Shown: positions 60,791 through 62,301 of the stretch, piece by piece | How the letters are laid out: every line of letters starts with the position of its first letter | Position numbering within the stretch: the first letter of the stretch is position 1 | Assembly: GCF_008630065.1 (NCBI RefSeq) | Contig: NZ_VWPL01000014.1 | Location: 1 to 64,000, forward strand | DNA: 64,000 nucleotides | Origin: Blastochloris sulfoviridis | GTDB taxonomy: Bacteria; Pseudomonadota; Alphaproteobacteria; Rhizobiales; Xanthobacteraceae | Reading direction: 5' to 3' | Notes under the pieces: generated by a model | Databases searched by the model: none | Seen by the model: the letters and a program-made list of their open reading frames with translations, nothing else | What the model was told of the DNA's origin: nothing | Made by a program: the position numbers and the translations under genes

Positions 60791-60988
60791 ATGGCGTTGC
60801 GCGACGATGACGAGCCCAGGCGCAAGGTGGTCCACGACATCGGCCAGCCGCTCGATGCGCTGTCGGTGGGCGAGCTGGAGGAGCGCATCGAGCTTCTGCG
60901 CGCCGAAATCGCCCGACTGGAGGTGGCATTGGCCGCGCGGCGGGCCAGCCGGGACGCCGCCTTCGACGTCTTCAAGCGCCCGGGCTAG
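60791..60988 (+). CDS. DUF1192 family small protein
   Basis: A 65-residue protein: DIGQPLDALSVGELEERIELLRAEIARLE, an amphipathic helix, then a basic tail. The family is of unknown function and is alphaproteobacterial. An AGGAGAG site precedes the ATG. The TAG stop is the start of a family 2 repeat. Confidence 0.88.
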   Translation: MALRDDDEPRRKVVHDIGQPLDALSVGELEERIELLRAEIARLEVALAARRASRDAAFDVFKRPG

Positions 60989-61091
60989 AGCGTCCACCGA
61001 TGCGATCGAACCAAGCGGACGCGTCTCAAGTCTTTGAGTTATCGCATTCTCTTTCGCAAAACCGGTATCCACTTTTGCGGAGAATGCTCTG
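60989..61091. repeat. Dispersed repeat, family 2, single inverted copy
   Basis: The reverse complement of the unit in the 53548 array: GAACCAAGCGGACGCGTCTC, then TCTCTTTCGCAAAACCGG, then CTTTTGCGGAGA. It begins right after the stop codon of the DUF1192 gene. Confidence 0.85.
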
Positions 61092-61146
61092 ACGGCCAGC
61101 GCTGGCGGCGGGACTGGCGCTGAGCGCGAAAATTCAGCGCCTTTGC

Positions 61147-61161
61147 TTAACCCCCTATTAA
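61147..61161 (+). promoter_or_regulatory. CtrA-type binding site and promoter
   Basis: TTAA-CCCCCTA-TTAA, a full match to the CtrA consensus TTAA-N7-TTAA. A -10-like TATGAC follows at 61173-61178, which puts the CtrA box over the -35 region, the usual position for activation. Transcription would start near 61184. The gene downstream is an rcdA homologue, and rcdA is a known CtrA target in Caulobacter. Confidence 0.65.
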
Positions 61162-61182
61162 GTATCCCAGCGTATGACTGTG

Positions 61183-61276
61183 GATGTCCAGATTCTGGAC
61201 GTCGAGTGGCTCCTGTCCACTCTGTTTGACGCCTCCCTGTTAAGACTTCGGAGCCGCCGCTGGCGGCTCTTTTTTT
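61183..61276 (+). ncRNA. Candidate small RNA upstream of rcdA
   Basis: A ~94-nt transcript is inferred from three stem-loops in a row. Hairpin 1 (61183-61203) has 9-base arms GATGTCCAG and CTGGACGTC. Hairpin 2 (61204-61222) has arms GAGTGG and CCACTC with the loop CTCCTGT, which could pair with Shine-Dalgarno sequences. A 28-base linker with GCCTCCCTG comes next, then an intrinsic terminator. A promoter with a CtrA box lies directly upstream and there is no ORF of note. A leader or attenuator of rcdA is an alternative reading. Not matched to a named RNA family. Confidence 0.55.
61250..61276 (+). terminator. Strong intrinsic terminator before rcdA
   Basis: Perfect 8-base stem GAGCCGCC with its complement, a 3-base loop, and seven T's. 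It lies 112 bases before the rcdA start, so it ends an upstream transcript rather than rcdA. The 61277-61387 stretch holds no gene. Confidence 0.9.
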
Positions 61277-61387: not shown

Positions 61388-61906
61388 ATGAGCGAGACCG
61401 AACTTTCGCCGCCGCAACCCGTCGTGCTGGCCGAGCGCCTGCTCGGGACGGAAGCGTTTGCGCTGCTGTTCAAGGAAGGCATGACTCTGGTCGAGTCGAC
61501 GGCGGCCTATCTCGATGGCCCGGGCCGGCAGGATTCGCGCTCGCTCGACCGCGCCGCCTCGCTCGCCTACGCCACCGAGAGCATGCGGCTGACCACCCGC
61601 CTGATGCAGCTCGCCTCCTGGCTGCTGCTGCAGCGCGCGGTCAATGACGGCGAGCTGACCACCGAGCAGGCCAAGAGCGAAAAGAACAAAGTGCGATTCT
61701 CCGGCGCCGCCATGCCGGAGGACGACCTCATGTCCCAGTTGCCGGAGCGGCTGCGCGAGCTGATCGACGCCTCGGTGGCGCTGCAGGACAAGGTGACCCG
61801 GCTCGACGCCCTGCTCTACAGCGACCGCCGCGAGCTTCCCTCCGCCGACAACCCGGTCGAGCGCCAGATCGGCCTGCTCAAGGCCGCCTTCGAGCGGCCG
61901 GAGTGA
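61388..61906 (+). CDS. rcdA: RcdA/DUF1465 family protein
   Basis: A 172-residue helical protein of the DUF1465 family. The family member in Caulobacter is RcdA, an adaptor that delivers the regulator CtrA to ClpXP protease. The family core is seen: SRSLDRAASLAYATESMRLTTRLMQLASWLLLQRAVNDGELTTEQA at about residues 40-85, then LPERLRELIDASVALQDKVTRLD. The start at 61388 fits family length; an in-frame ATG at 61343 would add 15 residues. The gene lies behind a CtrA-type box and a candidate small RNA. The adaptor role is inferred from the family. Confidence 0.85.
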   Translation: MSETELSPPQPVVLAERLLGTEAFALLFKEGMTLVESTAAYLDGPGRQDSRSLDRAASLAYATESMRLTTRLMQLASWLLLQRAVNDGELTTEQAKSEKNKVRFSGAAMPEDDLMSQLPERLRELIDASVALQDKVTRLDALLYSDRRELPSADNPVERQIGLLKAAFERPE

Positions 61907-62073: not shown

Positions 62074-62301
62074 TCAGGCCTTGAAGCCGAACCCGGCGAA
62101 CTTCTTCTGGAACCGCGACACGCGGCCGCCGCGGTCGAGCAGCTGCTGCTGGCCGCCGGTCCAGGCCGGGTGGGTGCTGGGATCGATGTCGAGGTTCAGC
62201 GTGTCGCCGGGGTTGCCCCAGGTCGAGCGGGTGTCGTAGGTCGTGCCGTCGGTCATCATGACCTTGATGACGTGATAGTCGGGATGGATGTCGGACTTCA
62301 T
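62074..62301 (-). CDS. rpmE: 50S ribosomal protein L31
   Basis: A 75-residue L31: [19 protein letters not shown], then [22 protein letters not shown], then the conserved [15 protein letters not shown] ending. It has no cysteine at all, so it is the zinc-free form common in alphaproteobacteria. It is monocistronic, with its own terminator, and divergent from the ABC exporter gene. Confidence 0.96.

Follow-up and report, generated by a model that had tools for sequence, protein, structure and literature searches.

A candidate CtrA-controlled small RNA gene of the BjrC1505 family upstream of rcdA in Blastochloris sulfoviridis

The 64-kb stretch of Blastochloris sulfoviridis DNA analysed here (the window) carries, between a DUF1192 protein gene and rcdA, what is probably an independent, CtrA-activated gene for a trans-acting, anti-Shine-Dalgarno small RNA (sRNA) of the BjrC1505 family. 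Comparison of related loci supports the gene unit, its promoter element, its structure, its conservation, and its persistence in genomes without a detected rcdA. In an Rfam covariance-model search the candidate scored 108 bits against RF02356 (BjrC1505), for which the gathering cut-off is 50, with the entire model covered; RF02356 was the sole Rfam family above its cut-off in the window. The first-pass annotation of this DNA had not recognised the RNA as a named family. Judged by comparison, it is an independent sRNA gene of a family that already has a name. The genome, a draft of 91 contigs, contains one RF02356 match, and a DNA-level search of a plasmid collection returned no match to the RNA. 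BjrC stands for an RNA named after Bradyrhizobium japonicum, and Madhugiri et al. 2012 reportedly verified expression of BjrC1505. The features of the locus are as follows.

60791..60988, + strand: DUF1192 protein gene, upstream neighbour (PF06698, 2.5e-21)
61140..61276, + strand: full RF02356 BjrC1505 match, promoter plus RNA (model 1-140 of 140, 108 bits)
61147..61161, + strand: CtrA box TTAACCCCCTATTAA (TTAA-N7-TTAA), from motif count and comparison of loci
61162..61178, + strand: promoter stretch 3' of the box, TTTC-like in relatives (conserved columns, 97 sequences)
61173..61178, + strand: -10-like TATGAC (read in the sequence; conserved columns, 97 sequences)
61180..61185, + strand: putative transcription start region (0.0-0.4 bits per column between -10 and hairpin 1)
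61184..61202, + strand: hairpin 1, core pairs 61186-61191 with 61195-61200 (fold and covariation)
61204..61222, + strand: hairpin 2, loop CTCCTGT at 61210-61216 (fold and covariation)
61225..61241, + strand: CU-rich linker TTTGACGCCTCCCTGTT, proposed seed complementary to Shine-Dalgarno sequences (column conservation)
61251..61276, + strand: intrinsic terminator, stem 61251-61258/61262-61269 and seven-T run 61270-61276 (fold and covariation)
61388..61906, + strand: rcdA (DUF1465; PF07323, 1.4e-54; PDB 3ctw RcdA, 2.2e-33), start 112 nt past the T-run
62074..62301, - strand: rpmE (ribosomal protein L31), downstream neighbour (PF01197, 1.7e-24)

Promoter element and RNA structure

The CtrA box and -10-like TATGAC claimed at first pass both hold. 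No other exact TTAA-N7-TTAA occurs in the 64-kb window (chance mean 0.00), and TATGAC lies just 3' of it at 61173-61178. For comparison across genomes, 80 named loci (L059-L138) were fetched by RcdA protein alone; only these are independent evidence for the box, because the model used to find L001-L058 already contained the promoter. Six of 138 loci were left out, two without the core (L048, L136) and four with too little upstream sequence (L054, L102, L121, L123). Among the 76 of 80 RcdA-found loci that were usable, that is, with the core present and enough upstream sequence, 75 carry a CtrA box with at most one mismatch in the same place, exact in 53, against a background in the same loci of 0.047 per kb, or ∼0.002 per locus. 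Over all 132 loci the box is found in 130, and in 107 of these it stands 76-82 nt before the linker. Information content across 97 non-redundant sequences of the 132 loci is ∼0.1 bit upstream of 61147, rises sharply at the box, stays elevated across the -10 and the RNA, and drops after the T-run; the selected block thus begins with the CtrA box at 61147 and ends with the T-run at 61276, and values outside it are near zero. The poorly conserved gap at 61180-61185 (0.0-0.4 bits) parts the -10 from hairpin 1, and we infer that transcription starts within it. The near-universal box, the covariation described below, and the conserved block from box to T-run together uphold the proposal that rcdA is flanked by an sRNA gene with a promoter of the CtrA type, and on this comparison the deeply conserved box probably belongs to the sRNA gene.

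The 93-nt RNA from 61184 to 61276 has a predicted fold of -38.3 kcal/mol (z -4.6, 0/200 shuffles as good), and the slightly longer 61180-61276 has a z of -5.1 against shuffles. We examined covariation in 66 aligned sequences, drawn from 78 non-redundant ones, in which 97.2% of cells in the three helices (hairpins 1 and 2 and the terminator) are standard pairs. Two-sided changes occur at 11 of 20 pairs (shuffled mean 5.3) and in 73 cells (shuffled mean 18.2), values that 0/500 shuffles reach in either case, although these shuffles do not preserve the relatedness of the sequences. Sliding the helix partners abolishes the signal. Pairs changed on both sides number four of six in helix 1, two of six in helix 2, and five of eight in the terminator; RNAalifold alone recovered the terminator and helix 2 and missed helix 1. 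Helices 1 and 2 covary, so the failure of the hairpins to be conserved in relatives beyond the terminator, which the first-pass annotation had named as grounds for dropping its proposal, did not occur. Its strong intrinsic terminator with seven T's is likewise borne out, with a covarying stem at 61251-61269 and a T-run to 61276. The claim of three stem-loops before this terminator fares less evenly: all three are in the window RNA fold, but the one in the linker is weakly backed. Three of its seven pairs are G-U, it is not predicted in folds of the Sinorhizobium meliloti or Shinella copies, and the linker varies too little for covariation to support it.

Coding by the RNA is unlikely, in line with the earlier remark that it contains no ORF. 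Across the 132 loci, stops interrupt frame 2 in 131, frame 0 in 50, and frame 1 in 62, and a closed ORF of at least 15 aa lies within the transcript in only 26. We rejected a small protein encoded by the RNA since no frame or short ORF is kept across loci.

Two further elements lie upstream. A second terminator-like hairpin at 61116-61141, immediately 5' of the CtrA box, is possibly the end of the DUF1192 transcript. At 61044-61087 an 8-base inverted pair with partly matching inner arms, GCATTCTC...GAGAATGC, was spotted by eye. A repeat search at ≥12 bases listed no such pair, and it is single-copy in the 64-kb window; the opposite strand gives a sub-threshold match to Brucella BASRCI27 (22.1 bits versus a cut-off of 59.8). 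It is perhaps a dispersed repeat.

Distribution and relationship to rcdA

The neighbourhood is widely shared. On the stretch at hand, the 80 RcdA-found loci include DUF1192 in 73, an oxidoreductase gene in 74, and rpmE in 71. The 30 loci of the order found with Rfam have these genes in 23, 27, and 22 cases, and rcdA in all; 28 class-wide loci have them in 13, 15, and 15, and rcdA in 16, the other 12 being loci where rcdA was not seen on the stretch around the sRNA. Orientation was taken from the 120 of 132 loci with rcdA. In every one, rcdA lies downstream of the sRNA on the same strand; a second CtrA box occurs between terminator and rcdA in 15 (2 exact) and is absent in the window. The terminator-to-rcdA distance ranges from ∼111 to 555 nt.

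RF02356 matches 245 of 297 genomes of the order (212 above cut-off). In a class-wide sample it matches 40 of 385 (17 above cut-off), or 36 of 380 after removal of the genome studied here and four genomes of the order. None of 14 control genomes has a match, including Caulobacter vibrioides, which has rcdA. By PF07323, rcdA is present in 265 of the 297 genomes, with absence defined as no match at E 0.001. Both genes are found in 238, rcdA only in 27, the sRNA only in seven, and neither in 25, a cross-table that treats genomes as independent and takes unlisted genomes as the complement of the listed ones. The 27 of 265 rcdA genomes without an RF02356 match, like Caulobacter, speak against the reading of a CtrA-driven sRNA. 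The 52 genomes without a match may mix loss with divergence, given stricter filters there and the low scores of Rhizobiaceae copies.

The case for box and RNA being a separate unit rests most strongly on sequence from the seven genomes with the sRNA and no detected rcdA. Their eight loci each have a CtrA box (≤1 mismatch) before the RNA. In one (L265), the oxidoreductase gene, DUF1192, the sRNA, and rpmE follow in succession with rcdA missing; in six others rpmE is still downstream of the sRNA, and L269, the remaining locus, is an additional copy at another place in genome G017. The sRNA-rpmE gap of 60-429 nt leaves no room for rcdA. A search for ctrA matched 19 of 20 genomes (G687 was not matched), including all seven of these, where identity to the query was 90-93%. 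The linker is exact in three of the eight loci (L261, L262, L264) and altered in five, and CCTCC is kept in all eight. Within G017, both L263 and L269 are RF02356 matches with an exact CtrA box, L269 at a sub-cut-off 43.8 bits.

CtrA might repress the promoter through the box, or another regulator with a similar motif might use it, and the position of the box could serve repression too. We consider either unlikely: the -10-like element is conserved along with the box, the spacing between them is that usual for CtrA-activated promoters, and no separate sigma-70 site turned up on the + strand in a simple scan for promoters. A different possibility is that CtrA drives rcdA through the terminator, the RNA being a 5' leader or attenuator whose hairpins set read-through. 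The invariant position of the sRNA upstream of rcdA on its strand is what such a leader would show, as is the scarcity of second CtrA boxes nearer rcdA, and earlier work credits the CtrA motifs here to rcdA (the available portions of PMC3616915, PMC2877005, PMC10469942). We nonetheless regard a leader as quite improbable. The terminator is conserved with covariation, its distance from rcdA varies several-fold, conservation does not continue past the T-run, and a separate box stands closer to rcdA in S. meliloti and Shinella. The first-pass annotation had allowed that transcription might read through as an rcdA leader only. We rejected that version by comparison, since the seven genomes without detected rcdA keep the sRNA and its box, with rpmE adjoining and ctrA present.

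The activated sRNA gene, our preferred reading, appears to extend to Rhizobiaceae copies that Rfam misses. A record of S. meliloti Ak57 labelled plasmid pSymB (CP090106.1, L190) carries DUF1192, rcdA, and rpmE; its size of 3.7 Mb and its rpmE and rcdA genes suggest a mislabelled chromosome. From DUF1192 to rcdA it contains an exact CtrA box, two hairpins, TTTTTCTCCCTGTTTT, a terminator, and a second exact CtrA box. Neither this copy nor L192 was reported for RF02356 even at E 0.1, and the Shinella copy (L191) and L197 score 31.7 and 32.8 bits. The same layout, with two separate exact boxes, is found in S. meliloti, Shinella, and Sinorhizobium sp. K101, and four genomes of the order have in common a 25-base core of the S. 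meliloti copy, with two exact boxes each. On these likenesses of sequence and layout, S. meliloti has a diverged BjrC1505 copy missed by Rfam. The second exact box, TTAACCCTTTCTTAA or TTAACCTTTCCTTAA, lies between terminator and rcdA in L190, L191, L192, and L196-L199; 105 of 120 other loci have none.

According to the parts of the report available, CtrA ChIP-seq in S. meliloti placed sites in the rcdA promoter, and rcdA was unchanged on CtrA depletion (PMC4433202). A CtrA-driven sRNA would account for binding at rcdA without an effect on it; the second box could as well, and the ChIP peak could belong to this box, which is nearer rcdA. In agrobacteria, several rcdA starts are described, with CtrA sites farther upstream than in Caulobacter (available text of PMC10469942), a pattern that would fit an unrecognised sRNA promoter.

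The linker and its possible targets

The first-pass annotation singled out the hairpin 2 loop, CTCCTGT, and the linker as sequences that could pair with ribosome-binding sites. The loop is not the key element, because hairpin 2 varies while the CU-rich linker core stays: its sequence differs among Rhizobiaceae as well as at many loci from outside the order, and a Methylobacterium copy has a shorter CCTCTGT. The most conserved part of the RNA is instead the linker, CU-rich and anti-Shine-Dalgarno-like as proposed. In 97 sequences, 16 of its 17 columns (61225-61241) reach 1.6-2.0 bits and the last 1.3, conservation that is apparently raised because those loci were located by the linker itself with few mismatches allowed. 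It is absent in only two of 138 loci, a set that lies outside the Rhizobiaceae copies, and occurs with ≤3 mismatches within 900 nt 5' of rcdA in 79 of the 80 named RcdA-found loci. CCUCCC falls in the loop of the weak helix in the window RNA fold, and the linker is unpaired in the S. meliloti fold. The RNA thus offers an accessible CU-rich motif complementary to Shine-Dalgarno sequences, the kind described for AbcR and MmgR (available text of PMC7143759); for MmgR, the sections available state that direct pairing has not been identified so far (PMC12559287). By this analogy and from its sequence, we propose that the linker may pair with Shine-Dalgarno sequences.

Searches for targets came out negative or weak. 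ACAGGGAGGC precedes an ATG at 28 places in 13 family genomes, one of them in the genome studied here, versus three for the reversed pattern, an excess that strong Shine-Dalgarno sequences would also explain; the places fall in varied genes, none of which recurs clearly. CAGGGAGG precedes an ATG at 23 places in the latter genome versus three for its reverse. By eye, several of the seed-plus-start genes resemble those for substrate-binding or other secreted proteins. Two genes picked by eye were followed in 30 family genomes, with start codons chosen mechanically: GGGAGG precedes the start of dnaE in one of 28 scored starts (two unplaced) and that of hflC in 10 of 23 (seven unplaced). In 16 of 17 genomes, the 5' region of ctrA paired with the linker, the only part of the RNA used, no more strongly than with shuffled versions of that linker. 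No shared mRNA target emerged among the genes tried (the seed-plus-start genes, dnaE, hflC, and ctrA).

This outcome for dnaE, hflC, and ctrA would be expected if the RNA were a sponge or decoy whose linker sequesters a protein or a second RNA instead of pairing with Shine-Dalgarno sites of mRNAs, and a linker that is the most conserved part suits one fixed partner. Yet its CCUCCC is the same kind of motif as the anti-Shine-Dalgarno motifs of AbcR and MmgR (again in the available text of PMC7143759), and we think a sponge a rather poor prospect.

The mechanism that we favour would run as follows, with the start site, activation over repression by CtrA, action in trans, any chaperone, and the targets all inferred. 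CtrA would bind the box, placed where the -35 region would be, and activate transcription from ∼61180-61186, yielding an RNA of 91-97 nt that ends at the terminator (61276). Its two covarying hairpins would be followed by the highly conserved CU-rich linker, open in its centre, which may pair in trans with the Shine-Dalgarno region of target mRNAs and lower their translation, by analogy with AbcR and MmgR. The outcome would be a post-transcriptional arm of CtrA.

Significance and comparison with known systems

We conjecture more broadly that Hyphomicrobiales and certain neighbouring orders have in BjrC1505 an old cell-cycle sRNA driven by CtrA, which provides a post-transcriptional arm of CtrA through a CCTCC-bearing seed and has a Rfam-missed homologue in S. 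meliloti, and that CtrA binding at rcdA, which in S. meliloti has no effect on rcdA, largely reflects the promoter of the sRNA. This wider proposal seems to us evenly balanced between right and wrong. BjrC1505 is an old, widely kept candidate cell-cycle sRNA with a CtrA-type promoter. It gives a concrete reading of a published puzzle, CtrA at the rcdA promoter without an rcdA effect (as given in the available parts of PMC4433202), and CtrA sites assigned to rcdA in earlier surveys (PMC3616915, PMC10469942, PMC2877005, in the portions available) may need re-assignment. As far as the literature searches show, the family-wide CtrA link, the persistence without rcdA, and the diverged Rhizobiaceae form are new. 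In the full text searched, BjrC1505 appears only as a table entry in another genus, neither RF02356 nor 'upstream of rcdA' appears, and a CtrA tie to the RNA was not found among the papers listed, supplements and most subscription papers lying outside that scope.

The closest known system is BjrC1505 itself (Madhugiri et al. 2012, doi 10.4161/rna.9.1.18008, as cited in the available text of PMC7143759). The window RNA matches it over its full length and above the gathering score, and no feature was found that excludes membership; the present analysis adds putative CtrA control and the rcdA neighbourhood. The alpha-r8/MmgR/SuhB family (RF00519) resembles the window RNA in having CCTCCCT, then GACTT and a GCCGC terminator. 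We rejected membership, since the window RNA reaches 26.6 bits against a cut-off of 41, and the same genome has a separate RF00519 gene (72 bits). This gene, at 1501-1577 of L139 on the minus strand of contig C44, has a CCTCCCT-GACTT-GCCGC 3' half resembling that of the window RNA. The two families may share a module.

Among cell-cycle sRNAs, CcnA of Caulobacter crescentus is likewise non-coding with a predicted CtrA site in its promoter, and it pairs through a C-rich stretch with G-rich sequence close to start codons, as proposed for the window linker. It differs in being encoded at the replication origin and in its CCCC loop, whereas the window RNA has no CCCC in 61180-61276 and, for its linker, pairing with ctrA 5' regions did not exceed that of shuffled sequence in 16 of 17 genomes. 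A CcnA-like homologue 'was not clearly detected' in S. meliloti, in the words of the same source (PMC8959179, available portions). A 2020 review links two S. meliloti trans-sRNAs to the cell cycle (PMC7143759, in the text available). The rhizobial sRNAs EcpR1 and GspR of S. meliloti resemble the proposed role in acting on cell-cycle mRNAs, but lie at other loci, downstream of divK-pleD and between SMc03844 and SMc03845, respectively (available text of PMC4414408 and PMC5928217).
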